DNA of 61,509 bases from a virus, in the IMG/VR virus record IMGVR_UViG_3300050011_000416, positions 1-61,509 of that record; one strand, written 5' to 3'. Below, piece after piece: positions 7,090 through 53,838 of this stretch. The translations under genes were made by a program, and so were the position numbers. Position 1 is the first letter of the stretch. Every line of letters begins with the position of its first letter. The notes under the pieces were generated by a model. That model was not told where the DNA came from and did no database searches. It was given only the letters and a program-made list of their open reading frames with translations.

Positions 7090-7266
7090 TTAAGATGGCC
7101 GCGTGGAAAGCGGTGGATACCGTGCCGACTTCGTGGGCGGCATACTGGACCCACTGGAGACATGCACTCGACCGCCCGTAGGTCGGCAGACTTGAGGAAT
7201 GTTCCTTGGGTCACGGGCTCTAAAGATTTATTGCCGAAGTGGGAGTAGCGTCCCACCCATCATTAA
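7090..7266 (+). ncRNA. Structured RNA family, copy A
   Basis: Closing stem P0 pairs GATGG (7094-7098) with CCATC (7257-7261) and extends through TTAA/TTAA with one bulged A. Two bases (CC) separate it from P1, GCGTG (7101-7105) with CATGC (7161-7165), flanked inside by GA (7106-7107) and GA (7159-7160). P2 is GTGG/CCAC (7113-7116, 7151-7154). A hairpin CGACC/GGTCG (7169-7185) has loop GCCCGT complementary to ACGGGC at 7213-7218, a possible pseudoknot, and TCGGCA (7183-7188) can pair with TGCCGA (7232-7237). The final hairpin GTGGGA-GTAGCG-TCCCAC (7239-7256) abuts P0. The ribosome-binding site TTAGGAG starts right after the element, so it may also act as a leader of the next gene. Confidence 0.75.
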
Positions 7267-7277
7267 TTAGGAGACAT

Positions 7278-7481
7278 ATGATCTCAATTATAGAAGCTTG
7301 GGGATTTGAACCGGACGATTGGGCATGTTCGCCACACAAAATATACAGTTTTACTTCTGAATCTAATACCGATTCAGATAAGATACTGAAACGCATGTTT
7401 ACTGATGAATTGGTCAAGTTTGTAATCATCAATGATGGAACAAACAAGCAAACTTATCGTAAGGGATGGGTACTTGATTAA
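7278..7481 (+). CDS. Small protein of unknown function
   Basis: A 67-residue acidic protein (MISIIEAWGFEPDDWACSPH). The ATG at 7278 follows TTAGGAGAC, the first ribosome-binding site after structured RNA copy A. The next gene starts directly after its stop. No recognised domain is seen. Confidence 0.6.
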   Translation: MISIIEAWGFEPDDWACSPHKIYSFTSESNTDSDKILKRMFTDELVKFVIINDGTNKQTYRKGWVLD

Positions 7482-7610
7482 ATGAAGTTAGCATCTATAA
7501 TATTCTGTATCGCGCTATATCTCGTTTTCTTAGGTTGGGCCTACCACGAAAATATCCTCTGTACTCCTACAGAACATACATCGGGATCCCCCTGTCAAGG
7601 TTTGGAGTAA
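7482..7610 (+). CDS. Short single-pass membrane peptide
   Basis: A 42-residue open frame beginning immediately after the previous stop codon. Residues 3-19 (LASIIFCIALYLVFLGW) form one hydrophobic segment, followed by a short polar tail with two cysteines. It could be a membrane-anchored inhibitor, but nothing specific supports a function. Confidence 0.5.
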   Translation: MKLASIIFCIALYLVFLGWAYHENILCTPTEHTSGSPCQGLE

Positions 7611-7612
7611 CC

Positions 7613-8191
7613 ATGAAATATCTACCTGAACCAGATAGTTTTTATGAGAACGAGAGATATAGTAACCAAGTATCCATCATGATTACTCCATACCGTAGTC
7701 TAAACTGGAAAGATTTGGTTACAAAATACGGTATTCAAGTTCCCGATATCATAGACCGCACATGCGGTAAATCTAAATGCGATGAGTGTAATGCTATATA
7801 TGTCGGACATCAATCTAAATGCGAGGCTATGGTGGAATTTCATCGAAAACCCGAAGCGTATTATGACACTAGAGGCTATCATTATATGTATCGTAATTTT
7901 GTGCAAAAGTGTGGCGGCTACCTTAGATGGGAACTGCAATCACAATTTAACCTCCAAACAGAGTTCTTTTCGTTACTAGAAATAATTAGTAGTTTGCCAC
8001 CAGTCATATACGATCCATTTATTAAATTTAGCGAACACTTTCCTCCAGGGGTTCCAGAATTACTTAGAACCAGAATACTCTCTCAAGAGATGCAGAATGT
8101 GAAGGCAGAACTGAATCTAATAAAGATGGGCATGCAACAAATTGCTCAAAAAATGAATTCTGCTGGGGCCTGTCTTAGTTTTGGTTTTTAG
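7613..8191 (+). CDS. Protein of unknown function
   Basis: A 192-residue protein. The start at 7613 is chosen because TTTGGAG lies just upstream and overlaps the end of the previous gene; a longer reading from 7535 would overlap that gene out of frame. It contains cysteines (CGKSKCDECNAIYVGHQSKC) compatible with a small zinc site near residues 52-69, and a helical C-terminus. Unrecognised. Confidence 0.6.
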   Translation: MKYLPEPDSFYENERYSNQVSIMITPYRSLNWKDLVTKYGIQVPDIIDRTCGKSKCDECNAIYVGHQSKCEAMVEFHRKPEAYYDTRGYHYMYRNFVQKCGGYLRWELQSQFNLQTEFFSLLEIISSLPPVIYDPFIKFSEHFPPGVPELLRTRILSQEMQNVKAELNLIKMGMQQIAQKMNSAGACLSFGF

Positions 8192-8219
8192 TTGACTTTT
8201 TAACAAAATAGGATATAGT
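8192..8219 (+). promoter_or_regulatory. Sigma70-like promoter driving RNA copy B
   Basis: TTGACT (8192-8197) and TATAGT (8214-8219) are 16 bases apart. The expected start at about 8226 falls on the 5' strand of the closing stem of RNA copy B (8224), so the promoter makes an RNA that begins with this structure. Confidence 0.7.
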
Positions 8220-8223
8220 TAGG

Positions 8224-8455
8224 TTTCTCATGAGGCGTGGAAGCAAGTAGGCGCTAGAAACCCTGGTACGCTGGGGACAATCAGGTAAGCTGGCAAAGGT
8301 GACGATGCCGACCTATTTTAGAGACACGCAACGACCCAAAAAGATCATTCGTAATAGATGTAGAGTTTACGTACCTTTAGGGGGCACACTGGAACTACCT
8401 GGTCAGGACTGGCCATACTTGAGCCGGAGTAGAAGTAGCGATCTACCATGAGAAA
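8224..8455 (+). ncRNA. Structured RNA family, copy B
   Basis: Closing stem P0 is nine pairs, TTTCTCATG (8224-8232) with CATGAGAAA (8447-8455). After two bases (AG) comes P1, GCGTG (8235-8239) with CACGC (8325-8329), with GA (8240-8241) facing GA (8323-8324). P2 is AAGTAGG (8245-8251) with CCTATTT (8312-8318). The terminal hairpin GTAGA/TCTAC (8429-8446) has GTAGCG in its loop and abuts P0. The paired sequences differ from copies A and C while the pairing is kept. This is the longest copy (232 nt). It has no long open frame and its own promoter. Confidence 0.8.
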
Positions 8456-8460
8456 ATAGG

Positions 8461-8531
8461 CAGTGGGTGCTGTGAGACGTGCAGACTAAATGACTCCTCG
8501 TACGGGATAAATCGGAATAGTCAGCCCACTG
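8461..8531 (+). ncRNA. Second folded element after RNA copy B
   Basis: CAGTGGG (8461-8467) pairs with CCCACTG (8525-8531), with GACTA (8484-8488) and TAGTC (8518-8522) as an inner stem. TTTTAATTTT follows, so it could be a terminator-like end or a regulatory leader. The strings GGGTGCT and AATCGGA also occur in the matching position after RNA copy C. Confidence 0.45.
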
Positions 8532-8553
8532 TTTTAATTTTAGGGAAAAATAT

Positions 8554-8712
8554 ATGAAGTGGTTATACAGAATCATTAGATTGTTCAAATGTCCTCACAA
8601 GTATGTCCAAACTAGCGGTCGCCTAAGAATAATTTTTGGCAATTTCTCAAACCACTACGGGTATATGAAGGCGTGTACTCGCTGTGGTAAAAACAAGGGG
8701 TTTAGGTATTAA
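8554..8712 (+). CDS. Small zinc-ribbon-like protein
   Basis: A 52-residue basic protein. CPHK near residue 13 and CTRCGK near the end give two cysteine/histidine pairs, as in small phage zinc-ribbon peptides. It begins 23 bases after the folded element that follows RNA copy B, with TAGGG upstream as a possible ribosome-binding site. Confidence 0.5.
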   Translation: MKWLYRIIRLFKCPHKYVQTSGRLRIIFGNFSNHYGYMKACTRCGKNKGFRY

Positions 8713-8714
8713 AT

Positions 8715-8948
8715 ATGAAAAAGGAACTTGAAGCATTTGTAGAAGGCCAGCTTTGTTACGTAGTTCTTAGACCCTATCAGGGTGAGGGTGAGCCAGTTCT
8801 TATTCTCCATGAAGCCAATGTGGCCGACTTGGGAGGCGGCTTCTATTATGGCAACGGACGTACATGGGTTTTGCAACCTCATGTTTCTATCTATGACGAG
8901 CAAGCCGCCACCCTATACGAAGGAAATTCCGATGATTCTCCAGTTTAA
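8715..8948 (+). CDS. Small protein of unknown function
   Basis: A 77-residue acidic protein starting two bases after the previous stop and overlapping the next gene by 17 bases. No family is recognised; the composition suggests a small beta-rich cytoplasmic protein. Confidence 0.55.
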   Translation: MKKELEAFVEGQLCYVVLRPYQGEGEPVLILHEANVADLGGGFYYGNGRTWVLQPHVSIYDEQAATLYEGNSDDSPV

Positions 8949-9261
8949 ATCCTACATCTATCGCTATACTGGAATCTACCTTGCCCATAAAGAAGAGCTA
9001 GAGTACTTATCGGACGATAAGCTCTGGAACGATATGGAACTAAGGCTTAAGGCTCCAGATAACGATATGTCTCTTGCTAATTGGGTAAGCGTGGAAATTG
9101 GTATGTGGCAGGCATGCCATGGATTCTGTAGACCCATGGTAAGTTGGACTTGGAAGTATCGTAATGTTCTGTTTGGCATACCCGCATCTTTGGTTAATTC
9201 GGCAGTATCTATTTGGTGGGACCTTAAAAGTCTTATAAGTAAGATGTTGTCAATTAAATAA
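8932..9261 (+). CDS. Protein of unknown function
   Basis: A 109-residue protein (MILQFKSYIYRYTGIYLAHK). The ATG at 8932 with AAGGAAA upstream is preferred over the longer reading from 8782, which would overlap the preceding gene heavily. It is rich in Trp and aromatic residues in the C-terminal half. Unrecognised. Confidence 0.5.
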   Translation: MILQFKSYIYRYTGIYLAHKEELEYLSDDKLWNDMELRLKAPDNDMSLANWVSVEIGMWQACHGFCRPMVSWTWKYRNVLFGIPASLVNSAVSIWWDLKSLISKMLSIK

Positions 9262-9276
9262 GTTTATATACGAATT

Positions 9277-9306
9277 TTCTTGTTATTTTTAAACATATGA
9301 TATAAT
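9277..9306 (+). promoter_or_regulatory. Extended -10 promoter for the NAD+ operon
   Basis: TGATATAAT (9298-9306) is a strong extended -10 box. A TTCTTG lies 18 bases upstream (TTGTTA at 15 bases is an alternative). It gives a leader of about 68 bases that contains the direct repeat AGGTCTA before the operon's first gene. Confidence 0.6.
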
Positions 9307-9380
9307 CTTTTATATAAGGCAGGTCTACCACTAAACCCTAGATTGATATGGGCTTACAGTAGGTCTAAGAAAAGGAGCCT

Positions 9381-10145
9381 ATGTTATACTTAAACGGTCA
9401 ACTAGTCAATGTCACCATGTTTCCGGACAACACCTCTCAGGTATGGAAACTTCCCCACCATATATCTAATTCGGATTATGCCTGGGTAGATTGGTCTTTC
9501 TCTAATGAAAGTGAAATTCTTCACTTAGCTCAATTAAAAACCCTCCTTGATCATTATGGAGCCCCCACTTCTCTAAGAATTCGATATTTGCCATATGGTC
9601 GTCAAGACAAAGTAGTGTCCAATCATACTACCTTTGCTCTCATAACATTTTCTCAAATTCTGAACAATATGAGTTTCGATAATATTGAAATTATCGATCC
9701 ACATAGCACTATCGCTACCGATCTAATCAAAAATTCAGTCGCTATTCAATCCACGAAGATTTCAGAACTTTGGAATACCGGAGAGTACGATGTGGTTTGC
9801 TACCCAGACAAAGGGGCTCTTTCTAAGTATACTAAGCTATACGATTACCCTTATATGCATGGGGAAAAGGTTCGTGACCAAATTACCGGGAATATTACAA
9901 GCTATCAAATTGTAGGTGATCCTGCTGGCAAAAATGTCTTGATTGTTGATGACATTTGCGATGGTGGAATGACCTTTAGACTTCTGGCCAAAGACCTACT
10001 GGCTGCGGGTGCAAAGAGCGTGGTGCTTTTCGTGACTCACGGAATCTTCTCAAAGGGAACAAGAATTCTCTTTGAATCAGGGATTCAACGGATTTTTACT
10101 CAGGATGGTGAAGTGAGTAATCGTCATGGCACTTTCTATTTATAG
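9381..10145 (+). CDS. PRPP-synthetase-like enzyme (candidate ADPR-pyrophosphate synthetase, Adps)
   Basis: A 254-residue member of the ribose-phosphate pyrophosphokinase family. It has the YLPYGRQDK motif and the phosphoribosyl-binding loop VLIVDDICDGGMTF. It is shorter than bacterial Prs (about 315). Prs makes PRPP from ribose-5-phosphate and ATP. In the phage NARP1 pathway a family member (Adps) instead pyrophosphorylates ADP-ribose. The adjacent NAMPT-like gene, the linked macro domain and the absence of an NMN adenylyltransferase favour the NARP1 reading, but the sequence alone does not decide it. AAAAGGAG precedes the start. Confidence 0.8.
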   Translation: MLYLNGQLVNVTMFPDNTSQVWKLPHHISNSDYAWVDWSFSNESEILHLAQLKTLLDHYGAPTSLRIRYLPYGRQDKVVSNHTTFALITFSQILNNMSFDNIEIIDPHSTIATDLIKNSVAIQSTKISELWNTGEYDVVCYPDKGALSKYTKLYDYPYMHGEKVRDQITGNITSYQIVGDPAGKNVLIVDDICDGGMTFRLLAKDLLAAGAKSVVLFVTHGIFSKGTRILFESGIQRIFTQDGEVSNRHGTFYL

Positions 10146-10156
10146 GAGATTATAAA

Positions 10157-11656
10157 ATGGAAAACTTTAGCGCAATGTTGTTATGTGATTTTTATAAATT
10201 GTCTCATCGTTTGATGTATCCAGGAAAGACGGAGGTTGTCTATTCTACTTGGACTCATCGAGCCAGTCGAATTAAAGAAGTTGATCACGTCGTAGTAGCT
10301 GGTAATCAAAGGTTTATTAAGAAATTCTTAATTGATTTCTTTTACGAAAACTTCTTTTGTAGGAATAAACAAAATGTGGTGGAAGAATATGCCCGTATCG
10401 TCAAGTATACGCTTGGCGTCGCCAATCCAGACACCTCGCATATCGAGGAACTCCACGATCTTGGATATCTTCCTTTGCTCATCAAAGCGGTTCCAGAAGG
10501 AACTCTTTTACCACTCCGAGTCCCTTCGATGACCATTCAGAACACAGATAAAAGGTTTTTCTGGTTAACCAACTATATTGAGACCCTTGCTTCTTGTGAA
10601 CTCTGGCCCACCTATACTGCGGCTACTATCGCCCATGAGTATCGTAAGTTACTAGATGCTGGAGCTATGAAGACTGTAGGTAATACAGATTTTGTGCCTT
10701 TTCAAGGGCATGATTTCAGCATGAGGGGTATGATGGGCATTGAAGCCGCCTCAAATACTGGATTAGGCCATCTTCTTTCTTTTGTTGGTACTGACACTAT
10801 TCCTGCAATTCTAGCTGCAGAATACTACTATAAGGCCAATGTGGAGAAGGAATTGGTCGGTACTTCCATTCCAGCCACCGAGCATAGCATTCAATGTGCT
10901 TATGGGGACGATCTGGCCTATCTTAAGCGCATGATTACCGAAGTGCATCCAACCGGATTTGTATCTGTTGTTTCTGATGGGTATGACTTCTGGGACGTTA
11001 TTGGTCGAGTTCTTCCCCTTCTTAAGGAAGATATTATGGCTCGTAAGGGTGGTCCTGTAGGAGATCGAGTCGTTATTAGACCCGATTCTGGAGACCCAGT
11101 AAAAATCGTTTGTGGTGATCCTGATGCCCCTAAGGGAAGTTTGGAACACAAAGGGGCAGTCGAAGCTCTCTGGAACATCTTTGGTGGTACGTACACCTTT
11201 ATGGACAATCCCACAAAAACTCAGTATAAGGTTCTAGATTCTCATATTGGCCTAATTTATGGGGACGCTATTACCCTTCGTAGGGCTGAAGAGATTATCA
11301 ATCGGTTGGCCGAAAAGGGATTTGCCTCTATCAATGTCGTATTTGGTATTGGATCTTATACTTACCAATACAATACCCGTGATACATTCGGATTTGCTTT
11401 GAAATCAACTGCATGTGTCATTGATGGTGTAGAAAAGCAAATCTTCAAGGATCCTAAGACAGATGATGGGATCAAGAAGTCACAAAAAGGTAAGGTTCAC
11501 GTCTATAGAGCTAATGGCAAGATCACATTCTCAGATGGGCATAGCCTAGCTTCTGAATTATCTGTGGACTTGTTGCAACCCATCTTCAAAGATGGTAAGA
11601 TGCTTAATGTGCAAACCTTTCAACAAATCAGAACCAGATTATTGGAGAGTAAGTGA
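10157..11656 (+). CDS. nadV: NAMPT-like nicotinamide (ADP-)ribosyltransferase (NadV or Namat)
   Basis: A 499-residue nicotinamide phosphoribosyltransferase family enzyme of full length. Recognisable motifs are SMRGMMG and VVIRPDSGDPVKIV, the latter carrying the catalytic and phosphate-contact residues. Classical NAMPT makes NMN from nicotinamide and PRPP; the NARP1 enzyme Namat joins nicotinamide to ADP-ribose pyrophosphate to give NAD+ directly. It follows the PRPP-synthetase-like gene by 11 bases with TAGGAG upstream, and its TGA overlaps the GTG of the macro gene. Either way it restores NAD+ during infection, for example against NAD-depleting defences. Confidence 0.85.
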   Translation: MENFSAMLLCDFYKLSHRLMYPGKTEVVYSTWTHRASRIKEVDHVVVAGNQRFIKKFLIDFFYENFFCRNKQNVVEEYARIVKYTLGVANPDTSHIEELHDLGYLPLLIKAVPEGTLLPLRVPSMTIQNTDKRFFWLTNYIETLASCELWPTYTAATIAHEYRKLLDAGAMKTVGNTDFVPFQGHDFSMRGMMGIEAASNTGLGHLLSFVGTDTIPAILAAEYYYKANVEKELVGTSIPATEHSIQCAYGDDLAYLKRMITEVHPTGFVSVVSDGYDFWDVIGRVLPLLKEDIMARKGGPVGDRVVIRPDSGDPVKIVCGDPDAPKGSLEHKGAVEALWNIFGGTYTFMDNPTKTQYKVLDSHIGLIYGDAITLRRAEEIINRLAEKGFASINVVFGIGSYTYQYNTRDTFGFALKSTACVIDGVEKQIFKDPKTDDGIKKSQKGKVHVYRANGKITFSDGHSLASELSVDLLQPIFKDGKMLNVQTFQQIRTRLLESK

Positions 11657-12102
11657 TTTTTTATAAAAAGGGTGATCTATTTAAAGCACCAGAACAACTG
11701 CTCGCACATGGGGTTAACTGTTCTGGTGCCTTTGGAAGTGGTGTAGCGGCTGGGATGGCTCTTAATCATATTGTAGCTAGAAATTCATATTTTTTCAAAT
11801 ACACAGAGTTTGGGTGGGAGCTAGGCGATGTACAATTCATTGTTTCTAACAATAAATGGATTGCCAATTGCGCAACTCAGCTTAATTATCTTCCTAGAAC
11901 TATGTGCCATGCTGATTATCCAGCAATAGAAGCCGCTATGCTTAAAGTTAAAGAATTTGCTATGAAAGACGGACTCACTGTCGCTATGCCCAAAATTGGA
12001 GCCGGATTGGCTGGGGGTGATTGGAATATAATCAAGGCAATCCTAGAGAAAGTTTTTAATGATTACGATGCTACTGTTTATGAACTTTTAACAGTTAAGT
12101 GA
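11653..12102 (+). CDS. Macro domain protein (ADP-ribose binding)
   Basis: A 149-residue stand-alone macro domain. The motifs DLFKAPEQLLAHGVNCSGAF, GSGVAAGMA and MPKIGAGLAGGDW match the ADP-ribose pocket of the Appr-1-p processing family. It starts with a GTG sharing four bases (GTGA) with the preceding stop, so it is translationally coupled to the NAD+ genes. It may hydrolyse or channel ADP-ribose derivatives, remove protein ADP-ribosylation, or bind a defence signal; the sequence does not choose between these. Confidence 0.8.
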   Translation: MIFYKKGDLFKAPEQLLAHGVNCSGAFGSGVAAGMALNHIVARNSYFFKYTEFGWELGDVQFIVSNNKWIANCATQLNYLPRTMCHADYPAIEAAMLKVKEFAMKDGLTVAMPKIGAGLAGGDWNIIKAILEKVFNDYDATVYELLTVK

Positions 12103-12614: not shown

Positions 12615-12639
12615 AAAAACCTCTTTACATTTGATGCAT

Positions 12640-12654
12640 ATACCTTTAAGATTG
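12640..12654 (-). promoter_or_regulatory. CAATCTTA-N4-TAT promoter candidate (DUF5675 gene)
   Basis: On the minus strand CAATCTTA-AAGG-TAT lies about 25 bases before the DUF5675 start. It is the only visible promoter for this isolated minus-strand gene. Confidence 0.55.
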
Positions 12655-12658
12655 TCAT

Positions 12659-12976: not shown

Positions 12977-12979
12977 AAT

Positions 12980-14312: not shown

Positions 14313-14318
14313 GGGCTT

Positions 14319-14740: not shown

Positions 14741-14741
14741 A

Positions 14742-14963: not shown

Positions 14964-14964
14964 T

Positions 14965-16991: not shown

Positions 16992-16994
16992 TAA

Positions 16995-19416: not shown

Positions 19417-19419
19417 AGA

Positions 19420-20042: not shown

Positions 20043-20047
20043 GCGGA

Positions 20048-40957: not shown

Positions 40958-40958
40958 C

Positions 40959-42190: not shown

Positions 42191-42197
42191 ATGGGAC

Positions 42198-43789: not shown

Positions 43790-44049
43790 GAATATTTTTT
43801 AATCACAATACGTTGGATAGCTACCATAACGACAGCTGCGTAAAATTTGGTATAGGCTGGTATAGACACCACAAAAGCCATAAGTGGTTTGGAATTACTA
43901 TAGAACTCTATCTTCTTTATTGGGTAGTTAGTGGCAACTTTGTTAGTAATTATAAAGAATATCGAAAGAGAATGGACTGGAAACATAGTGACCATCTTAG
44001 GGAAGATTTAGCTGCAAAATTGGCAGCTAGAAAATTGGAGAAAAAGTGA
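43786..44049 (+). CDS. Small protein of unknown function
   Basis: An 87-residue basic protein with one hydrophobic stretch (WFGITIELYLLYWVVSGNFV), possibly membrane-associated. The ATG at 43786 overlaps the previous stop. Confidence 0.45.
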   Translation: MRIFFNHNTLDSYHNDSCVKFGIGWYRHHKSHKWFGITIELYLLYWVVSGNFVSNYKEYRKRMDWKHSDHLREDLAAKLAARKLEKK

Positions 44050-46163
44050 ATATAAGCATTCATACACACCCTGAATCCAGGCTCAGTGGTTCTCCCCTTC
44101 CTGCTATGATTAAGCGTGCAGTAGACTTGGGTCGTACCCATTTTTCCTATACTGACTTGGGCCACATCTCTAGTTGTTTGAAGACTTACGGTCTTGCCAA
44201 GAAGTCAGGACTCAAATTTGCTCCAGGTATTGAATTCTATTTCAAAGATCCCAAATGTCCATTCGTTACTGGAACTCAGGCAGATCGCTGTAGGTACTTT
44301 AATGCAGCACTTTTTTGTACTAATCAGCTCTCTTTTCAGGAACTCATAAGAACGGTATCTAAAGACGATATGCCCAAAATTGAGGTCCAAGAGGAAGAGC
44401 AATCCTTATGGTCCTGGGATGAACTGGAACGTCTAAGTAAGTTCGATACCCTCCTAGTTCTTGGGGGTGTCCACGATATGGTTGGGAAAGTCCTTCTAGC
44501 TGATGGCCCAGAATTGGCAGAAAAGGTATTACTCAGGGCTAAAGAGTTATTTGGTCCTAGATTATCCATAGCTTTGATCTGTGAACCATGGGATAAGAAA
44601 TACGCTACGGTTATCAAAATCAACTACACAGATGGTACCTATGACTCTTTATTGGCTTCTGACACGGTTACAACCGATAGGGCTAGAAAAATAAAGGTCT
44701 CAGATCTAATTAAAAGAGGTGGTCATACAGAGATTCAATCCAAAATTGTAGGTAATACTTTTTTTGAAGTCTATAAGAAAATAGATAACATTACGGAACA
44801 AAAAGGTTTTCTTCCATTGCCAGGTGGCGACATTACCCTTAGAATCAATAAATTTTTGCTCGAAATGTCCAAAAAATATGGAATTACGGCACTAGTATCT
44901 GACTACGCCTTTTATGCTTCAAAAGAAGATCACGCCGCTCAAACCATGGTTCTTGGCGGTAGTAAGCTAAAATCCGACCTTCATATGAAAACCGATGAAG
45001 AGTTCTATAAGTATCTTTATACCGTAATGAATCTGAGTCAGGACGAAGCCGCTCAACTTATATACAATAATAATGAGTGGGCTAAGAATTTTGATAACTT
45101 TGAATTGAAATACGAATGGCATTTGGCAGATAGTGGTGGAAATGCCGCACAGCAATGCATGGAGATTATTAAGAAAAAGGGACTAATGAAGTGGGATAAT
45201 CCTCTATGGACTGCTCGCCTTAGAGAAGAGTTTTTGGTCATTGCGAAAAACAAGGTCAAGGATCTATCCCCATATTTCTTGCCCATTCACGATGTCATTA
45301 ACTATTATGAGGAAAATGGCAGGCTTACTGGCCCAGGACGAGGAAGTAGTGCTGGAAGCCTAATTGCCTATCTAATGGGTATTACCAAAGTTAACCCATT
45401 TACTTACGACCTTAGTTTTAACCGCTTCTACTCTACAGATCGTATCGAAGCCCTTAAATTGGCCGATATCGATTCTGACTTGGAGTCTAGAGAATTATTG
45501 GTTGGAAGTGATGGTAAAAGCGGATATCTTTATGGTAGGTGGGGCAATAAGGCTGCCCAAATCAGTACCAGGGGCAAGATCAGGCTAAAGAGCGCAATCA
45601 AGGACACTAACCGATATTTTAAGGGATCTGTTGAGAAAGAAATCGAACAAATCTGTAAAAAGCTTCCAGATGCCGGTCAAGGCATTACAGATGAACAATT
45701 TTTGTTTGGTTTTGAGGATGATGATGGCAACCATATTGATGGGTTGATCGAAACTTCCGAAGTCTTACAGAAATACATAGCTGAACGTCCAAAAGAATGG
45801 GCAATCGTACAACAGGCTCTAGGGATTACTAGATCTTTTAGCCGACATGCCTGCTTCCCTTCTAGTGAGGCAATCTTAACTATAGAAGATGAAAAGATAG
45901 TAAAAAGAGGAATTATAGAATGTCACAACAAAATGATTCTAACAGGAACGGGGAGAAAGGCAAATGCGAGACTTCTCCATCAAGGACGGAAGAAGATTTA
46001 CAAGTACACACTCTCGGACGGGACAAGTATAAAGAGCACCTCAGATCACGAATTCTTAACACTAGAAAAAGGCTGGCAGAAAATAAATTTGATCCTGAAG
46101 GAAAACCTTACATTTTTACCTCTATCGATGACTGTAAAAGATTTGCTAAAAATAAAGGACTGA
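44046..46163 (+). CDS. dnaE: DNA polymerase III alpha, N-terminal part fused to an N-intein
   Basis: A 705-residue protein. Residues 1-602 are the first part of a bacterial-type replicative polymerase: PHP domain (SIHTHPESRLSGS, YTDLG), palm with GPGRGSSAGSLIAYLMG and LADIDSD catalytic acids, ending RSFSRHA. From Cys603 (CFPSSEAILTIEDEKI) it is the N-terminal half of an intein, with block B SIKSTSDHEFLTLEKGW, and stops after 103 intein residues. The rest of the polymerase is in the frame from 46989. The split point is the conserved RHA-A-G motif. The start is GTG on the previous stop. Confidence 0.85.
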   Translation: MNISIHTHPESRLSGSPLPAMIKRAVDLGRTHFSYTDLGHISSCLKTYGLAKKSGLKFAPGIEFYFKDPKCPFVTGTQADRCRYFNAALFCTNQLSFQELIRTVSKDDMPKIEVQEEEQSLWSWDELERLSKFDTLLVLGGVHDMVGKVLLADGPELAEKVLLRAKELFGPRLSIALICEPWDKKYATVIKINYTDGTYDSLLASDTVTTDRARKIKVSDLIKRGGHTEIQSKIVGNTFFEVYKKIDNITEQKGFLPLPGGDITLRINKFLLEMSKKYGITALVSDYAFYASKEDHAAQTMVLGGSKLKSDLHMKTDEEFYKYLYTVMNLSQDEAAQLIYNNNEWAKNFDNFELKYEWHLADSGGNAAQQCMEIIKKKGLMKWDNPLWTARLREEFLVIAKNKVKDLSPYFLPIHDVINYYEENGRLTGPGRGSSAGSLIAYLMGITKVNPFTYDLSFNRFYSTDRIEALKLADIDSDLESRELLVGSDGKSGYLYGRWGNKAAQISTRGKIRLKSAIKDTNRYFKGSVEKEIEQICKKLPDAGQGITDEQFLFGFEDDDGNHIDGLIETSEVLQKYIAERPKEWAIVQQALGITRSFSRHACFPSSEAILTIEDEKIVKRGIIECHNKMILTGTGRKANARLLHQGRKKIYKYTLSDGTSIKSTSDHEFLTLEKGWQKINLILKENLTFLPLSMTVKDLLKIKD
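45852..46160 (+). mobile_element. Split intein, N-terminal half (in dnaE)
   Basis: 103 residues from catalytic Cys1 (CFPSSEA) through block B (TSDHEFLT) to the stop codon. It would splice in trans with the half encoded at 46989-47102. Confidence 0.75.
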
Positions 46164-47011
46164 AATGTTTAGATAACAAATACGTTAGATGCGATTTTCC
46201 TATGTCTTGGGAATGCAGCAATGGACATATCTTTAAAAGACGCATAACCGATATGGTTAGAGGAACCGCAAAATGCCCTAAATGTGGAGATAGGGGTCGA
46301 GCAGAGCATTCTAGAAAAACATGGGAAGACATAAACAAAGAACTTAAAAGACGAGGACTCATTCCTCTATTTGTTCACGAAGACTATAAGAGCGTGGAAT
46401 CTGTCTTAAGGTTCAAACACACTAAATGCGGTAATGAATTCGAATGTAGGTACAGACAGGCCTTTAAACTTAAAGATGGAAGCGCGTGTCCAAAATGTAA
46501 TCCACTGTGCAAAAGGGGGACTTTGGAAGAATGCGAAAAATTGGCCCAAAAGAAAGGCGGAATTTGCGTAAAATTTTCTGGTAATGTTAAGGATATTTCT
46601 ACTTGGAAATGTAATGCAGAGCACGTTTGGCAAGCCCCACTATTCTTGATGCGCAAGGGAAGTTGGTGTATGATCTGCGAATACGATTCCAGAATAAAAT
46701 ATAAATCTGAAGAAGACTATAAGTTAGCGGGTCGCTTGGCCAGCTATAAACGAAGAGATAAACAAAAAAATAGAGGATTCGATATAGATTTTAACGATAT
46801 GCTTAAGCTCAAAGATTCCAAATGTTTTTACTGTTCAGATGAGGCTAAGGGGTACGATAGAAAAGATAATAGTTTGGGACACTTAAAAACAAATGTGGTT
46901 CCGTGTTGTTTTAGATGCAATAAGATAAAAATGGACAAAATTCCCTTTGACTTAATGATAGAAATAGGTAAAACTATAAATAAGTATTATGCTAAAAATA
47001 ACAAAAGTTGA
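45920..47011 (+). CDS. HNH-type endonuclease lying inside the split intein
   Basis: A frame of up to 363 residues between the intein halves. The recognisable protein starts near residue 63 (KPYIFTSIDDCKRFAKNKGL). Three zinc-ribbon repeats follow (WECSNGHIF...CPKC, FKHTKCGNEF...CPKC, WKCNAEHVW...CMIC). The C-terminal nuclease is CFYCSDEAKGYDRKDNSLGH, then NVVPCCFRCNKIKMDK. The first 81 codons overlap the N-intein in another frame, so the true start is uncertain (ATG 45920 or a later, unusual codon). Its end overlaps the C-terminal intein half by 23 bases. Confidence 0.7.
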   Translation: MSQQNDSNRNGEKGKCETSPSRTEEDLQVHTLGRDKYKEHLRSRILNTRKRLAENKFDPEGKPYIFTSIDDCKRFAKNKGLKCLDNKYVRCDFPMSWECSNGHIFKRRITDMVRGTAKCPKCGDRGRAEHSRKTWEDINKELKRRGLIPLFVHEDYKSVESVLRFKHTKCGNEFECRYRQAFKLKDGSACPKCNPLCKRGTLEECEKLAQKKGGICVKFSGNVKDISTWKCNAEHVWQAPLFLMRKGSWCMICEYDSRIKYKSEEDYKLAGRLASYKRRDKQKNRGFDIDFNDMLKLKDSKCFYCSDEAKGYDRKDNSLGHLKTNVVPCCFRCNKIKMDKIPFDLMIEIGKTINKYYAKNNKS

Positions 47012-47102
47012 AGAAATAGGATATGAAGACGTTTACGATCTTTTTGTAGACAATGAAGACCATTCTTTTATATTGGGAAATTCAGGTGTAATTGCGCATA
47101 AT
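46989..47102 (+). mobile_element. Split intein, C-terminal half (in dnaE)
   Basis: 38 residues with block F (VYDLFVDNEDHSFIL) and block G (GVIAHN) before Cys+1. The length is typical of natural split-intein C-halves. Confidence 0.75.
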
Positions 47103-48899
47103 TGCGCATTTGTCATTGCAGATATGCCCATTTCTGATCTGGTTCCTCTTAAAGAAGGCCATATTACCCAATATGAAGCTGGGGCTTGTGAAGAAGCTGG
47201 TTTGGTTAAATACGACTTTTTGGTTATCAATCAATTGAAAGATATCAGAGTTTGCTTGGACTTGATCAATAAGAAGAATGGCGATGTCAACAGAGTTGGT
47301 TATTTTAACCATAAAGGCCTAAGAACCTACATTTGGGACTTACCAGAAGATCCAGAGGCCTACAAAAGTGTTTGGAATGGAGAGACAGAATCCTGCTTTC
47401 AAATCAATACCACCACCATGACCCCTTTTGTGAAATCCGTCATGCCCCAAAATATGGAAGATCTTTCCATCATTCTATCCCTTGTTCGCCCTGGTCCATT
47501 GGACTATGTTATCGAGGAAACCGGCAGAAATATGGCTAGGGAGTACGTACATCGTCGTGATGGCAATTCATATGAAGATATTGAAATCCTAAAGGAATTG
47601 ATTCCACAGACACATTCGGTTCTTGTTTATCAAGAGCAGGTTACTAAGATCGCAAAGGAACTAGCTGGATTCTCCGGCAGTGCTGCTGAAAATCTCAGAG
47701 AAGCTATTGGTAAAAAGAAGCGCTCTACGATTTTAAAGATTAAGCCTGAGTTTATTAACGGATGTAAGTCTTCAGGCAAGGTTACCGAGGAAGAGGCCCA
47801 ACAGCTATGGGAACGAATCGTGACCTTTGGTAGATATGCGTTTAATAAATCCCACGGAATCTCATATGCCCACATTACCTACGCTTGCATGTTCCTTAAG
47901 CATTACTACAACTTGGAGTTTTGGGCAGCCATTCTCACAAATGCCAAGGAAAAAGAGATCTCAGGCAAGCTCTGGCCTCACGTAAGAGACTTGGTAGCTC
48001 CTCCAGATATCAACCTATCTTCCGATGAAATGGAGATTGACTACGCCAATCACAAGATTCGTGCCAAGTTAGGTGTCATCAGGGGAATGGGTGCTGCTAC
48101 AATCGATCCTATTGTGGCTGGAAGGCCCTACAAAGACATCCAAGACTTCGTCAATAGGGATGTGGCCGGACCAGCTCTTAGCCGTAAGCTAACCCACGTA
48201 GGAGTCTTAGACTCCCTATATCCTCCCAAGTTAGGTTTATTGGAAAAACTTCAATTGTTTGAGAATGCTCTAGAGATCAAGAAACACGATAAAAAAGTAG
48301 AAAAGGCAAGATTAGAGGGTAAAACCATAAAAGCCTCTTTGCCCAAGTTGGGTGAGATTCCAGAAGAATATCTCAGCATTGAAAAAGATCCTATGAAGAA
48401 CGCTGCTATAAAGAAATCGATTCTTCCTAGCCTTTTAGTTGGTTTGAGAGATCTCGGCATGAAGTACTCCAAATGTTTGGAATATAAAGACATTCCTTCT
48501 AAAATGATGGTATCTGCTGAAGGGCGAAGGGGTGTAGAGTTTGATACTAGGTACAAGCCAACCGATAAAGAGAGGATTTTCTTGATTAGCGGGGAGATGC
48601 TCCAACAATTGGACGAGCAAACTGCTGAAGAGGTATCGGAAGATAAGTATGCGGTAGTTACTGCTTTCATTGTTGAAACTAAGGTATTTGACTATAAGAA
48701 AAATACAAAGCAAGCATTGAAGGTTGTAATGGACGTAGATGGGGTAACTAGTGAGAAAGTTCTATGGCCAGACTACTTCACCCAAGAATTGACTTATCCC
48801 AAGGAGCTTAAGAAGGGCAACATTTGTACAATTTTCCTAAAGAAACGTGCAAATAAGGCAGATGTTTGTTCAATTACAGAAATTGTAATAGAGGCTTGA
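46989..48899 (+). CDS. dnaE: C-intein fused to the C-terminal part of DNA polymerase III alpha
   Basis: A 636-residue protein. Residues 1-38 are the C-terminal half of an intein (DVYDLFVDNEDHSFILGNSG, ending VIAHN). Cys39 begins the polymerase C-extein (CAFVIADMPISDLVPL), followed by the finger domain (SLVRPGPLDYVIEETGRN, KSHGISYAHITYACMFLKHY), helix-hairpin-helix and OB-fold regions. Trans-splicing would join RSFSRHA to CAFVIA and give a polymerase of 1,200 residues. There is no strong ribosome-binding site before the ATG. Confidence 0.85.
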   Translation: MLKITKVEEIGYEDVYDLFVDNEDHSFILGNSGVIAHNCAFVIADMPISDLVPLKEGHITQYEAGACEEAGLVKYDFLVINQLKDIRVCLDLINKKNGDVNRVGYFNHKGLRTYIWDLPEDPEAYKSVWNGETESCFQINTTTMTPFVKSVMPQNMEDLSIILSLVRPGPLDYVIEETGRNMAREYVHRRDGNSYEDIEILKELIPQTHSVLVYQEQVTKIAKELAGFSGSAAENLREAIGKKKRSTILKIKPEFINGCKSSGKVTEEEAQQLWERIVTFGRYAFNKSHGISYAHITYACMFLKHYYNLEFWAAILTNAKEKEISGKLWPHVRDLVAPPDINLSSDEMEIDYANHKIRAKLGVIRGMGAATIDPIVAGRPYKDIQDFVNRDVAGPALSRKLTHVGVLDSLYPPKLGLLEKLQLFENALEIKKHDKKVEKARLEGKTIKASLPKLGEIPEEYLSIEKDPMKNAAIKKSILPSLLVGLRDLGMKYSKCLEYKDIPSKMMVSAEGRRGVEFDTRYKPTDKERIFLISGEMLQQLDEQTAEEVSEDKYAVVTAFIVETKVFDYKKNTKQALKVVMDVDGVTSEKVLWPDYFTQELTYPKELKKGNICTIFLKKRANKADVCSITEIVIEA

Positions 48900-48924
48900 C
48901 AGATCGATCTTTGTCAGATATGCT
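48896..48924 (+). promoter_or_regulatory. Sigma70-like promoter before the subtilisin-like gene
   Basis: TTGACA and TATGCT are 17 bases apart. The expected start falls on the ATG at 48931, giving a leaderless message. Confidence 0.65.
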
Positions 48925-48930
48925 TTTAAT

Positions 48931-49674
48931 ATGAAGTTGATACTCTTAATCGCTTTACTAGTATTTCCATCAACAAGTTACGCCGATCATCCTCAGTGTG
49001 GGCAAATTAGGGTAGCCATCGTAGATACAGGCCTGGACTTAAAAGATCCCAGATTTTCTGGACGACTATGCCAAACCGGACACAGGAATTTTGTAGAAGG
49101 TGAGGGTCTGGAAGATAGGCATGGTCATGGCACTCATATTGCTGGACTGGTAGAGAAATATGCTGGATCTGCCGATTACTGTATGCTCATTTATAAATAC
49201 TACGCAGATCTATCTTCAGGATATGTCAATTTAACTAGATATTTGCAAGCCATTAGGGCAGCTAAGGACAACGGAGCGACTATCATAAACTTCTCCGGTG
49301 GTGGCCCAGAGTTTTCGGAAGAGGAATATGTCTTTATTAAAGATAGTCCTCAAATAACTTTTGTAGTGGCTGCTGGAAATGATAATAAGAACCTAGACAT
49401 TCCAGGTAACGGATATTATCCAGCTTCTTATTTCTTACCTAATGAGATTCCCGTGGGCAATATAGATTCAAACGATAACAAAGTTAAGTCTTCAAATTGG
49501 AGTAAAAGAGTAACTGTCAAAGAACATGGCGAAATGGTATTTTCTACCCTTCCATGCACTTTCAATGGTAGGATACTTTGTGACGGTTTCATGACAGGAA
49601 CTTCTCAAGCAACCGCAATTCATACTGGAAAATTAGTTGCAAAATTATCCAAAACATGCAATTATAGGAAATAA
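48931..49674 (+). CDS. Secreted subtilisin-like serine protease
   Basis: A 247-residue S8 protease. Residues 1-18 are a signal peptide. The catalytic triad is Asp32 (VAIVDTG), His66 (GHGTHIAGL) and Ser225 (GTSQATA), with Asn150 (VAAGN) as oxyanion residue. There is no long propeptide, so the enzyme is compact. It would act outside the cytoplasm, in lysis, in shedding of envelope proteins or against competitors. It has its own strong promoter. Confidence 0.85.
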   Translation: MKLILLIALLVFPSTSYADHPQCGQIRVAIVDTGLDLKDPRFSGRLCQTGHRNFVEGEGLEDRHGHGTHIAGLVEKYAGSADYCMLIYKYYADLSSGYVNLTRYLQAIRAAKDNGATIINFSGGGPEFSEEEYVFIKDSPQITFVVAAGNDNKNLDIPGNGYYPASYFLPNEIPVGNIDSNDNKVKSSNWSKRVTVKEHGEMVFSTLPCTFNGRILCDGFMTGTSQATAIHTGKLVAKLSKTCNYRK

Positions 49675-49676
49675 CA

Positions 49677-49928
49677 ATGGCAGACAATACAGACTTTAAG
49701 GTTATCAAGAAGAAAGAGATCGACAAGGGAACTACTTTAAAGGTGACCAAAAATATCATGAGCGGCAGAATATTTGTAGAGTTTGCTTCTTTGGATCCCA
49801 AAATTATTCTCCAGAAGAACTTCCAGGATACGATAGATGGCAAATTGCAATCTGAGAAGTTTGCTAAGAGCATCACCAGTACGGATCAGTTGATGAAGTA
49901 CTTTGGTATTAAGAAGAAAGTTTTATGA
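49677..49928 (+). CDS. Small protein of unknown function
   Basis: An 83-residue basic protein with AGGAAA upstream, coupled to the next gene. Unrecognised. Confidence 0.5.
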   Translation: MADNTDFKVIKKKEIDKGTTLKVTKNIMSGRIFVEFASLDPKIILQKNFQDTIDGKLQSEKFAKSITSTDQLMKYFGIKKKVL

Positions 49929-50227
49929 TTACCCTACTATTGGTTTTCCTATTTGTCCTCTTCTCTCTTACTTTTATTGCAGCGGCAGGTGGGGGTGGAC
50001 TAGTTAGAGTTCATAAAAATGAAGAGTGGACTAAATTCAAAAATGGCGTTCCTGTGTGCGGTGTTGGCAGACGAGGTTATTGGACCAACAGTCACACTTT
50101 CGGTGGTGATTGGCCATTTAGGGAGCGCCCAGATGGAACTTGGTATGACCCCAAAACTGGTAAGGATTGTGTAACTATGTCCCTTAATGATTTGCTTAAA
50201 AAGCACGAAAAGAAAGATAAATCATGA
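49925..50227 (+). CDS. Small exported or membrane-anchored protein
   Basis: A 100-residue protein. Residues 1-22 are hydrophobic (MITLLLVFLFVLFSLTFIAA) and act as a signal or anchor. The rest is polar with two cysteines. It is coupled on both sides. Confidence 0.5.
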   Translation: MITLLLVFLFVLFSLTFIAAAGGGGLVRVHKNEEWTKFKNGVPVCGVGRRGYWTNSHTFGGDWPFRERPDGTWYDPKTGKDCVTMSLNDLLKKHEKKDKS

Positions 50228-50493
50228 AGGTAGATCTTGGTAAATTCGACCTTAAGGTTTGGAGAGAAATAGCCGTAAAAGCAACGCCGGGACCATGGGG
50301 TCCGTGGAGTGGAAACTGGCCATTCTATGTCGATGTAAGGAAGCCTTCTCAATCCTTATCAAAACATGACGATACAAGACCAACTTATTGGCGTTACGAA
50401 GATGCTGAGTTTGTTTTGAATTTTGCCCCCGAAGTAGTTATTGCATTGCTGGATCGTATAAAAGAGTTGGAAAATATCGTAAACAAGGAGTAA
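50224..50493 (+). CDS. Ea22-like protein
   Basis: An 89-residue protein with the Ea22-type pattern: ATPGPWGPW, then DAEFVLNFAPEVVIALLDRI, then a coiled-coil tail. Ea22-like proteins are frequent accessory phage proteins without a settled function. Confidence 0.6.
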   Translation: MKVDLGKFDLKVWREIAVKATPGPWGPWSGNWPFYVDVRKPSQSLSKHDDTRPTYWRYEDAEFVLNFAPEVVIALLDRIKELENIVNKE

Positions 50494-50495
50494 TT

Positions 50496-51269
50496 ATGTC
50501 ACTAAGTACTATTCTAAAAGAGATGGAAACGAATCGCCCAAATGCTGATATGGATGTTCAAATGGGATCCGAGGCTACTTATGGTGGCCGTGTTGGTCTA
50601 AAACGTGCTGCAACAGAGACCCTAAAACGTCTGAAACTTCAATACCGCAATGAATTGATGACCTCTACAGCGTTTATCGTAGTTACCGGAGATGGCAGGG
50701 ACAGTTTCGGCCAACTAGCTTCTGGAGATAATTTTGGATGTTTCTTGGCAGACCCAGAAGAATTCTACAAGGACTTGGCTTCTAGGATCAACCCTACTCT
50801 TTTTGGCAGGGAAGGAGTTAGACAGCTTTTCAATATCGCCGGGAATATCTTGGAGGATAAAGCGTTGGAGCTTGACATCAACTCCTATCCAATGTTAATG
50901 TTTAACGAGAAGTATAACTCAGCGGTTAATAGTGTAGAGGACTTTGTTCCATTGATTAGGAATGCCGTTAATGATCAAGTAGGGTCTGAAATTGTTGGAA
51001 TTAATGCAATTCATTCTATCGTTGATAAGGCCATTGGAAAGAACCATTCGGCATCAGTTACCCCTGTGGTGCTTAATACGGCAGATGAGAAGTTTGCTCT
51101 AGATCTTCAAAATAATCTTAAGAGATTGACCGGTAAGGTATTTTTGGTAGTTGCTGGTAAGGCATCAAAAAATCTTTATAAGACCAAGGAAGTTGTTCTG
51201 GTCAAAACAGTATCAGAGGAGAGTGTTGGGGAAGCATTAGCTACGATTCGCAGTAAGATTCTACAGTAA
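50496..51269 (+). CDS. Protein of unknown function next to the SSB
   Basis: A 257-residue alpha/beta protein with AAGGAG upstream. The middle reads VVTGDGRDSFGQLASGDNFG. It directly precedes the single-strand binding protein. No family recognised. Confidence 0.5.
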   Translation: MSLSTILKEMETNRPNADMDVQMGSEATYGGRVGLKRAATETLKRLKLQYRNELMTSTAFIVVTGDGRDSFGQLASGDNFGCFLADPEEFYKDLASRINPTLFGREGVRQLFNIAGNILEDKALELDINSYPMLMFNEKYNSAVNSVEDFVPLIRNAVNDQVGSEIVGINAIHSIVDKAIGKNHSASVTPVVLNTADEKFALDLQNNLKRLTGKVFLVVAGKASKNLYKTKEVVLVKTVSEESVGEALATIRSKILQ

Positions 51270-51293
51270 AACTAACAATAAAAGGGAGATAAC

Positions 51294-52334
51294 ATGGAAG
51301 ACTGGAAACCAAATTACGACGGTAAGAAGCAATACAAGAAGAAGAATCGCTATAAGCAAGAGGATGGAGATGTTGTTTTTCGCATTCTCCCTCAACCAAA
51401 GGGTAAAAATGCAAAGCGTAGCGGGGACTGGAGCAAATATCATTCGGTTCAGTTTGGCTACAAGAATTCAGAAGGTAAGGCACGTCCTTTTGAGAGCCCC
51501 CAAGTAAAGAAGGATAAGGTTGTCTTAGTTGCAGACGCAGCGTTGGATCGTATTAACGACCTTAAAGCAAAACTTGAGGTTGCTCGTTCCGAGAATAACG
51601 GACCTTTGATTGCCAAGCTTAACACCTTGATTGGCTTTAAGGGAGTTTATAGCGTTGATAATAATCACCACATGAACGTTATTGGTCTAGATAACAATAT
51701 TGGTGGTCTTAAAATTCGCTATAAGGCGAAACTTGCCTTGGACGAGGAAATCAAGAAACTTCGTGCTCAAGGAATTGATCCCCTCTCCCTTGAAGATGGA
51801 CGATTCTTTGTTTTTACTCGCACTGGAACTAGCAATGATACCGCCTTTAAGGTTTCAGTATATACCGAAAGTTTGGACGTTCCTGGTATTGGCAAGGTTG
51901 ACAGGCAAGTAGTTCATAAGGTTACTCCAGAGATCCTCCTTCGTCTTGAGGAAGAGGGGTTTGATTTGGATGACATTGCTCCAAAGCTCACAGCTGAAGA
52001 GGTGGCCAAAATTGTTGCTACTTCTGATTTGTTGACTGGCCGAAGTCCTGCTTGTGATGAGTTCTTCGATGCTCGTTGGAAGGCTCGTCGTGCTCTCGCG
52101 ACAGCTTTAGTAGATGAGACACTTCAGTCAAGTGGAGATGATGAGGAAGAGTATAGGGCTCCAAGTGCTCAACCTACCGGTTTGGCTATGCCCGTAACCG
52201 CACCTGTTACTATCTCAAATCCACCAAGTGCTCAACCTACTGGTTTGACTACGCCTAATGTCAGTCAAATTGGAACAGGTGAAGACATGAGTGACGAGGA
52301 TTTCTTTAAGGAAATCGGAAATACTGGAACTTAA
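51294..52334 (+). CDS. Single-stranded DNA-binding protein (gp32-like)
   Basis: A 346-residue protein with a basic N-terminus (KKQYKKKNRYKQ), an OB-like core starting VVFRILPQPKGKN, and a flexible C-terminus with a duplicated PSAQPTGL and the acidic tip DMSDEDFFKE, typical of phage SSBs. It uses CGT/GTT-rich codons, as expected of an abundant protein. It lies in an operon with the UvsY-like and RecA genes. GGGAG precedes the start. Confidence 0.75.
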   Translation: MEDWKPNYDGKKQYKKKNRYKQEDGDVVFRILPQPKGKNAKRSGDWSKYHSVQFGYKNSEGKARPFESPQVKKDKVVLVADAALDRINDLKAKLEVARSENNGPLIAKLNTLIGFKGVYSVDNNHHMNVIGLDNNIGGLKIRYKAKLALDEEIKKLRAQGIDPLSLEDGRFFVFTRTGTSNDTAFKVSVYTESLDVPGIGKVDRQVVHKVTPEILLRLEEEGFDLDDIAPKLTAEEVAKIVATSDLLTGRSPACDEFFDARWKARRALATALVDETLQSSGDDEEEYRAPSAQPTGLAMPVTAPVTISNPPSAQPTGLTTPNVSQIGTGEDMSDEDFFKEIGNTGT

Positions 52335-52348
52335 TAGAAAGGGAGCCC

Positions 52349-52726
52349 ATGGAATTGAATCCAGATACTGATTTATCAATCGATATTCATAACTTAACTG
52401 CAGAATTTCGAGGGCTTCCTTCTACTTTATTTAGGTACTATCAGTACAAGGCTAAAGTAGAAGCAAACAGAGATACTTGTAAGGCTAAGCTCAAGGAGAC
52501 TAGAGCTTTGGTCTACAAGAGAATTAAAAGCGATTCGTCAGTTAAGTATACAGAAAAAGGTCTAGAATCAGAAATAGACATTGATCCGGCAGTTATAGAC
52601 GCACAAATGAAGCTTATTAGAGCCGAACATGACGCCTCAACTTGGGGTGGTGCAGTGGACTCTATGAAAGCAAAAAAAGACTGTCTCATCCAACTTGGAA
52701 GTGATCGTAGGAAAGAAATAGCATAA
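52349..52726 (+). CDS. UvsY-like recombination mediator candidate
   Basis: A 125-residue, mostly helical protein between the gp32-like and RecA genes. The size and position match T4 UvsY (137 residues), which loads the recombinase onto SSB-coated DNA. Sequence similarity is not clear by eye, so the assignment is mainly positional. GGGAG precedes the ATG. Confidence 0.45.
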   Translation: MELNPDTDLSIDIHNLTAEFRGLPSTLFRYYQYKAKVEANRDTCKAKLKETRALVYKRIKSDSSVKYTEKGLESEIDIDPAVIDAQMKLIRAEHDASTWGGAVDSMKAKKDCLIQLGSDRRKEIA

Positions 52727-52728
52727 AT

Positions 52729-53631
52729 ATGGCAAAACAAGAAGTATCCCTAATTGAAAAAATTCGTAATCGTTTAAATGAGAATAGTGGTAAGGAATTG
52801 GTTAAAACGTTTGGTCCAGATGACAACCTTCTGCAAGTTAGGTCTTGGATTCTCCTTAAACCCTTCTTTAAGCAAGCTACGGGTGGGGATGGCTTTCCAT
52901 GCGGACACATAACTCAAGTCATAGGTAAGCCAGACAGCGGAAAGACAACTTTGGTTATGGAAGGAATCGTTTCTTGCCAAAAAGCAAGTGGAGTAGTTTT
53001 TCTGATTGATTCAGAGCATAAATTCTCCATGCCAAGGCTTACTCTGATGGGTGGAAATCCTAAAGAAGTCTTGGTCACTCCTACAAATACCCTAGAAGAG
53101 GCTTGGGACGCTATCGAAAAGATCCTTGCTGAGGCCCAAACCCTACGTGAAGAGGGTTTTACGGGGCCAATAATGATCGTTTGGGACTCAGTTGCAGCTT
53201 CAGTTCCAGAAGCAATGATGGAAGGAGAGGCCGGAGACGCCCATTTTGCAGTAGAAGCAAAGCTTAATAACAAGAACGTTCGTAGGCTTCGTCAATCCAT
53301 TGATAAATCTGAAGTTGCTTGCGTATTCATTAATCATTATTATATGACTAATCCCAAGACTAAGTATGAGCAACCAGAGCTTATCATTAAGGGCGGAGAG
53401 GAACTTTCTTTCTTTTCAACCTTGATTATTCGTACCAAACAAGGTGCCAAGATCATGCGAACGGTTCTAGGCGAAGAACAACAAATTGGTAGGACTACTA
53501 GATTTTTTACCCATAAGGGTCATTTCCATGGTAGGACGATTACCAAGGATGTCTCTGTAGTGGATCTGGGCATTTTAGAGACACCTGAAGAGTTACTAGA
53601 ATACAAGAAATCTCTCAGAGGAGAGCTTTAA
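52729..53631 (+). CDS. RecA/UvsX recombinase
   Basis: A 300-residue recombinase with Walker A GKPDSGKTT (66-74), IMIVWDSVAASVPEAMM as Walker B region and a DNA-binding loop near 195-215. Strand exchange links it to the SbcCD-like, UvsW-like and RuvC-like proteins here, indicating recombination-dependent replication. It is followed after four bases by structured RNA copy C. Confidence 0.85.
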   Translation: MAKQEVSLIEKIRNRLNENSGKELVKTFGPDDNLLQVRSWILLKPFFKQATGGDGFPCGHITQVIGKPDSGKTTLVMEGIVSCQKASGVVFLIDSEHKFSMPRLTLMGGNPKEVLVTPTNTLEEAWDAIEKILAEAQTLREEGFTGPIMIVWDSVAASVPEAMMEGEAGDAHFAVEAKLNNKNVRRLRQSIDKSEVACVFINHYYMTNPKTKYEQPELIIKGGEELSFFSTLIIRTKQGAKIMRTVLGEEQQIGRTTRFFTHKGHFHGRTITKDVSVVDLGILETPEELLEYKKSLRGEL

Positions 53632-53635
53632 AAGT

Positions 53636-53838
53636 TTGGCGGCGGCGTGGAAAGCTGTGGGAGTAGCTCAGAGGAGAAAGCGGGGTCGAGAGATCTGCTA
53701 TGTGGGTTCGAGTCCCACCACCACTGGAGACACGCATCGGAAGGTGGAATGAGTAGGTACTGCAACGTCGGGCGTAAGTCAGGCGTTAATGCGTCATCTT
53801 TATAGTCCTACTAGTAGGAGTAGCGTCCTACCCGCCAA
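53636..53838 (+). ncRNA. Structured RNA family, copy C, with tRNA-like domain
   Basis: Closing stem P0 is TTGGCGG (53636-53642) with CCGCCAA (53832-53838). Two bases (CG) precede P1, GCGTG (53645-53649) with CACGC (53731-53735), with GA (53650-53651) facing GA (53729-53730). P2 is GTGG/CCAC (53657-53660, 53721-53724). Inside P2 lies TAGCTCAG, a D-arm-like loop with GG, an arm GGTC-GAGA-GATC (53684-53695) where an anticodon arm would be, and a classic T-arm GTGGG-TTCGAGT-CCCAC (53702-53718). The terminal hairpin GTAGGA-GTAGCG-TCCTAC (53814-53831) abuts P0. No promoter is visible; it is probably cut from the recA message. Confidence 0.8.

Follow-up and report, generated by a model that had tools for sequence, protein, structure and literature searches.

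Three segments of one viral genome have been described as sharing an architecture while differing in the sequence of their stems, which raises the question of what they are: do they belong to a selected RNA class, and does such an RNA control the gene that follows it or act on its own? Here we examine the segments in the window (the whole 61,509-nt stretch of viral DNA that was analysed), their relatives in other phages and the genes around them.

Three copies in the window

The preliminary description placed in each segment a closing stem (P0), two linker bases, a GCGTG/CAYGC stem (P1) with facing GA bases, a second stem (P2) and a terminal hairpin (P3) that contains GTAGCG and abuts the 3' arm of P0 (P0') without a gap. 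All of this reads as claimed in the three segments, including the P0 stems GATGG/CCATC, TTTCTCATG/CATGAGAAA and TTGGCGG/CCGCCAA, except that copy 2 has GTAGG as its second stem, one C-G pair being lost. The features are as follows, with scores under models R1 and R2.

7094-7261, + strand: copy 1, P0 to P0' (R1, 81.6 bits at 7091-7264; R2, 63.3 bits)
7094-7098, + strand: copy 1, P0 5' arm GATGG, partner CCATC at 7257-7261; P0 covaries class-wide
7099-7100, + strand: copy 1, linker CC
7101-7105, + strand: copy 1, P1 GCGTG, partner CATGC at 7161-7165
7239-7256, + strand: copy 1, P3 hairpin GTGGG-AGTAGCGT-CCCAC
8192-8219, + strand: copy 2, predicted sigma-70-like promoter, TTGACT at 8192-8197 and TATAGT at 8214-8219 (score 10.2)
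8224-8455, + strand: copy 2, entire element (R1, 58.9 bits; R2, 31.8 bits; covariance-model match 8225-8454)
8224-8232, + strand: copy 2, P0 5' arm TTTCTCATG, partner CATGAGAAA at 8447-8455
8233-8234, + strand: copy 2, linker AG
8235-8239, + strand: copy 2, P1 GCGTG, partner CACGC at 8325-8329
8429-8446, + strand: copy 2, P3 hairpin GTAGA-AGTAGCGA-TCTAC
53636-53838, + strand: copy 3, entire element (R1, 97.4 bits; R2, 87.5 bits; covariance-model match 53635-53839)
53636-53642, + strand: copy 3, P0 5' arm TTGGCGG, partner CCGCCAA at 53832-53838
53643-53644, + strand: copy 3, linker CG
53645-53649, + strand: copy 3, P1 GCGTG, partner CACGC at 53731-53735
53702-53718, + strand: copy 3, tRNA T-arm module GTGGG-TTCGAGT-CCCAC in the P2 arm (tmRNA T-arm fragment, 10.2 bits)
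53814-53831, + strand: copy 3, P3 hairpin GTAGG-AGTAGCGT-CCTAC

A covariance model had been proposed as a check. R2, made from 19 sequences of which none comes from the window, recovers just these three places in the 61.5 kb and nothing else, with E-values of 7e-17 for copy 3, 9e-12 for copy 1 and 4e-5 for copy 2. Folding of single sequences gives z-scores of -1.3, -0.4 and -0.7 for the three copies, none of them significant, so that support for the fold is comparative. The window has 18 occurrences of the bare GTAGCG sequence, and the loop by itself is therefore not diagnostic.

Several other features of the window were recorded. A tRNA-Met gene (6974-7043) stops about 50 bases 5' of copy 1. 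A second stem-closed element lies 3' of copies 2 and 3 (8458-8540 and 53843-53922, respectively), with GGGTGCT following the 5' arm, a T- or A/T-rich tail and fold z-scores of -1.5 and -2.8; these elements are unrelated to the main RNA core. At 44046-48899, DNA polymerase matches (PHROG 405, positions 46-556 and 553-1054) are divided between two ORFs with a third ORF in between.

A class spread across phages

Searching phages by blastn with the window copies gave chance or tRNA matches only, and the class came into view because core patterns were used. Public viral contigs were scanned with the degenerate core GCGTGGAAAGC-N-GGAGACAYGC, in three gap ranges, and with a second pattern that leaves P1 free. 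The scans added about 57 copies from a diverse range of phage contigs, selected by the P1-P2 core only. Nearly all keep the closing stem, P1 and the terminal hairpin, as the preliminary description expected of homologues, and show the full architecture (L045, in our numbering of loci, is the one clear exception); the two-base linker and the zero gap between P3 and P0' are seen again, with P0 and P3 absent from the scan pattern. The earlier observation was right and understated: the three copies are members of a large RNA class.

Named carriers are the Pseudomonas phages phi297, AUS531phi, vB_PaeS-D14P, OQ658365 and vB_PaeS-D14H. All 40 virus records first searched hold one to three copies each, and tandem pairs 15-80 bases apart occur in L008, L009, L013, L025 and L032. 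Bacterial and archaeal genomes totalling 257 Gb gave 14 pattern matches, with the fold in only two (L061, L069); another 184 genomes, sampled from a single bacterial class, added one further match, in a phage-like locus. No protein family is common to the carriers within the loci examined, and comparison of 107 flanking proteins gave no shared neighbour family.

A second small phage RNA family, of about 75 nt, was also observed. It has a hairpin with the loop TCGCG and a covarying stem (CTTAG/CTAAG, TTGAG/CTCAA, CATGG/CCGTG), an inner hairpin and then a hairpin around GGGAGAGACC, and its architecture is common to about 16 of 18 pattern matches (L029:1613-1685, L191:10475-10540, L178, L182, L186, L187, L190 and others). 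Six of its loci gave no convincing Rfam match. It adjoins or lies near the main RNA in L029, L191 and L186.

Fold and covariation

Elements of the class measure about 120-235 nt and run through P0, two bases, P1, an internal loop, P2, P1', a variable domain, P3 and P0', with P0, P1, P2 and P3 as the four recurrent helices. The internal loop between P1 and P2 is GAAAG facing GAGA. P1, which is GCGTG/CAYGC in the window copies, appears in the P1-free scan as ATATG/CATAT, ACGTG/CACGT, GTGTG/CACAC, GCACG/CGTGC or ATGTG/CATAT, all compensatory. P3 is a hairpin with the eight-base loop AGTMGCGN. Its GTAGCG sequence, described at first as invariant, is so in the three window copies but not in the class, where the loop reads AGTAGCGN or AGTCGCGN and rarely AGTAGTGA or ATTAGCG. 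In homologues P0 spans 5-10 bp or more, within element boundaries that favour it since the boundary script sought P0 pairing, and its sequence differs almost every time.

Supplied with no structure, RNAalifold recovered the same four helices from an alignment of 39 sequences, in which 20 of the 23 pairs show changes on both sides. Paired cells reach 98.2% in the class alignment, and covariation is 0.593 against 0.156 after shuffling, a score reached by 0/500 shuffles; when the pairing is slid, it is 0.07-0.11. The fold of the class is close to certain, and these figures bear out the proposal of a structured RNA under selection. The idea that the variable domain generally forms a pseudoknot was tried and rejected (mean score 9.6 versus 8.7 shuffled). 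Tentatively, the 3' end of this domain pairs as a helix just ahead of P3, a weaker signal with a combined p of 3e-6.

Transcription and genomic setting

In 63 copies, sigma-70-like -10 elements are most frequent at the site where their final base lies 6 positions ahead of the model start: a strong -10 stands there in 8 of the 63, and in three or fewer at each of the other positions between -16 and +5. The best cases have a -35 element at proper spacing, such as TTGACT-N16-TATAGT in window copy 2, whose -10 likewise ends 6 bases ahead of the model start, so that the expected start is P0. The position of these elements supports a transcript whose first base would be that of P0. At the other end, T is enriched directly after P0' (70% at +4), and in phi297, with a P0 of 18 bp, a terminator-like hairpin with a T-run lies about 40 bases downstream.

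Each window copy lies upstream of a start codon, as first described, the next ATG being about 17 bases from copy 1 and 94 bases from copy 3, and a short ORF lying about 100 bases beyond the end of copy 2; the statement does not extend to the class, in which several copies adjoin a convergent gene. By the calls of a mechanical ORF finder, about 20 of 67 copies, roughly a third, have a same-strand start codon less than 100 bases away, and at about eight loci a convergent gene lies within 10 bases. These proximities bear on the main rival explanation, in which the element is a cis-acting 5' leader, riboswitch-like or mRNA-stabilising, that controls the downstream gene and uses P0 as a switching or protective stem. 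Nearby start codons agree with a leader, as do the T-run after P0' and, at many loci, a start codon with a Shine-Dalgarno sequence 14-30 bases downstream of P0'. So does one phage clade: the gene that follows copy 3 (53933-54913) has relatives, 38-66% identical, in 23 viral loci, and in 12 of these the RNA lies directly upstream. Against a leader, downstream genes are of different kinds among phages, the 107 flanking proteins showing no consistent downstream class apart from this one clade; convergent genes and tandem copies occur; the phi297 hairpin stands between the RNA and the next gene; and interiors are swapped while the downstream gene stays the same, as detailed below. Together, the -10 peak, the T-run, the convergent neighbours and the phi297 terminator favour a stand-alone RNA, a leader role being less probable.

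The protein encoded at 53933-54913 has no Pfam or PHROG match, and its AlphaFold model, with a pLDDT of 48, is of too low quality for interpretation. Between the window and L108 the neighbour proteins are 52% identical, the RNA matches are confined to core blocks 11-13 bases long, and P0 has an entirely different sequence and is still paired. For the syntenic set alone, in an alignment fitted to the model, covariation is 0.56 versus 0.215. In L158, L160, L162 and L164 (about 2200-2500) the slot upstream of this gene is filled by other sequences, missed by R1, that are structured-looking or divergent (in L162, for instance, GTAGCGG-CG-GCGTT ... CCGCTAC).

Exchange of the interior

In phi297-type phages the RNA lies downstream of csrA, and the upstream flank is 93-100% identical. 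At this locus P0 is kept around four different interiors. Four phages have one in common; D14H keeps P0 and the P3 stem unchanged around an interior that differs and in which only a small hairpin is left of P1; in P52 and P54 an A-T pair of P0 has become G-C by compensatory change, the P3-like hairpin has a different loop, and the interior is yet another; in BR153a the P0 arms enclose an unrelated stable fold (z -4.9); and PP9W lacks the segment. Variation of this kind is typical of accessory loci that are under diversifying selection or recombine often. P52, P54 and F116 carry a gene 3' of csrA, and its product in P54 and F116 is a DUF3268 zinc-finger protein; the gene follows csrA at L148:3849-4379 (phi297-like) and L143:6548-7018 (F116), in the region where others have only the RNA.

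Exchange within P0, together with the length of the phi297 inverted repeat, might also point to a mobile or catalytic element, its P0 arms being the terminal inverted repeats of a transposing unit or its core a putative self-cleaving ribozyme. We consider this improbable: a transposase could hardly recognise a P0 that differs in almost every copy, genomes hold only one to three copies, and no Rfam ribozyme or intron matches.

The adjoining gene suggests another function, that of an RNA binding CsrA/RsmA and titrating the host or phage protein. In its favour, csrA adjoins the RNA in the phi297-type phages and in L069 and is present in three independent carrier lineages of about 55, to be compared with 30 of 2517 phages (PMC7366521); two GGA triplets are conserved, and elements average 5.1 GGA against 4.1 in shuffles. 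However, the conserved GGAs sit in the P1/P2 internal loop, not as ANGGA motifs in hairpin loops, and the GG ahead of the P3 loop is not conserved. No general link to CsrA holds either, since most carriers lack csrA, and F116, Vibrio 234P8, Providencia PSTCR8lys and YMC11/07/P54 have csrA without the RNA by R1. Judged on sequence features, titration of CsrA would be quite improbable.

The T-arm of window copy 3 recurs as a module: a five-pair stem with a T-loop is found in 5 of 76 copies, this one included, against 0.03 expected from shuffles, control loops giving none. Paired ends, a variable far end and an occasional tRNA T-arm are what one would see in a Y-RNA-like scaffold that carries a tRNA-like module and binds a Ro/Rsr protein. 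A TROVE (PF05731) protein is encoded in 0 of 36 carrier phage records, however, and no Rfam Y RNA matches, which leaves this reading very improbable.

Proposed function

The reading we prefer, with a probability of roughly 0.55, is that of a stand-alone, trans-acting phage RNA in which a constant scaffold with exchangeable arms engages a host factor. Each copy would be transcribed by its own sigma-70-type promoter from the first base of P0, and the 3' end would pair back onto the 5' end as P0, sealing the RNA. A host factor shared by many bacteria probably binds the conserved core (the two-base linker, P1 with its GAAAG/GAGA loop, and P3 stacked on P0). The P2 arm and the domain ahead of P3 would be modules; they are swapped among close relatives, as one would predict for a region shaped by an arms race or by specificity, and the arms would provide target or escape variation. 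The role in infection is a weaker proposal: most likely the RNA would serve counter-defence or the take-over of the host, as a decoy for, or by occupying, a factor that binds or processes RNA. More tentatively, it may be a counter-host RNA, a sealed scaffold whose interiors are exchanged like immunity or anti-defence alleles, sometimes for an unrelated fold; the exchange could also be ordinary recombination between inverted repeats and not an arms race.

A class established by covariation, present in many phages, absent from Rfam and carried by culturable temperate phages of Pseudomonas aeruginosa offers a direct handle on the function of phage noncoding RNA. The allele series at a single locus, with the same P0, different interiors and a natural absence in PP9W, allows its role to be tested in phages already available. 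Should the exchange reflect an arms race, the locus would do with swappable RNA what anti-defence loci do with protein, and phages would fight their hosts with exchangeable RNAs in the way known for anti-CRISPR and anti-restriction proteins.

Comparison with known systems

Rfam 15 (4227 families, including GOLLD, ROOL, HEARO, Y RNA, tmRNA, 6S, introns and ribozymes) gives nothing at gathering score in the window, in agreement with the preliminary description, which recognised no named class. For the copies and 19 other loci, at E<=5 or E<=1, the only match within an element is the 17-nt T-arm fragment of copy 3, other loose-E matches being at chance level and elsewhere in the loci. A mimic of 16S rRNA (helix 24, the 690 hairpin) looks alike by eye but scores equal shuffles. 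In literature of incomplete coverage we found no description of the class, and a prior listing as an uncharacterised RNA is possible; Fremin and colleagues have reportedly surveyed candidate structured RNAs in viruses. No family matched, and none of the known classes compared showed the features that would place the RNA within it. We take the RNA class to be new; this covers the class and not its function, which could be of a known kind.

Bacterial Y RNAs of the YrlA type have their ends paired in a closing stem and a variable distal module that can be tRNA-like. The phage RNA resembles them, as described, in both respects and differs in its core, besides the lack of an Rfam match and of a phage-encoded Ro. 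With the CsrB/RsmZ sponges it has in common conserved GGA triplets and, sometimes, a phage neighbour that encodes CsrA, whereas its GGAs are few and placed in an internal loop of a single compact fold with a covarying core. Like phage tRNAs and tmRNA, a minority of copies carry T-arm modules, but ARAGORN finds no complete tRNA fold at any copy, only T-arms, and whole elements are not tRNA-folded. The ornate RNAs GOLLD and ROOL are likewise structured and phage-associated; they are far longer than the 120-235 nt of the present class, which matches neither in Rfam. Finally, the closing stem P0, the conserved core and the frequent proximity to a start codon recall riboswitches and leader RNAs, from which the class is set apart by the variety of its downstream genes, its own predicted start site and its convergent neighbours.
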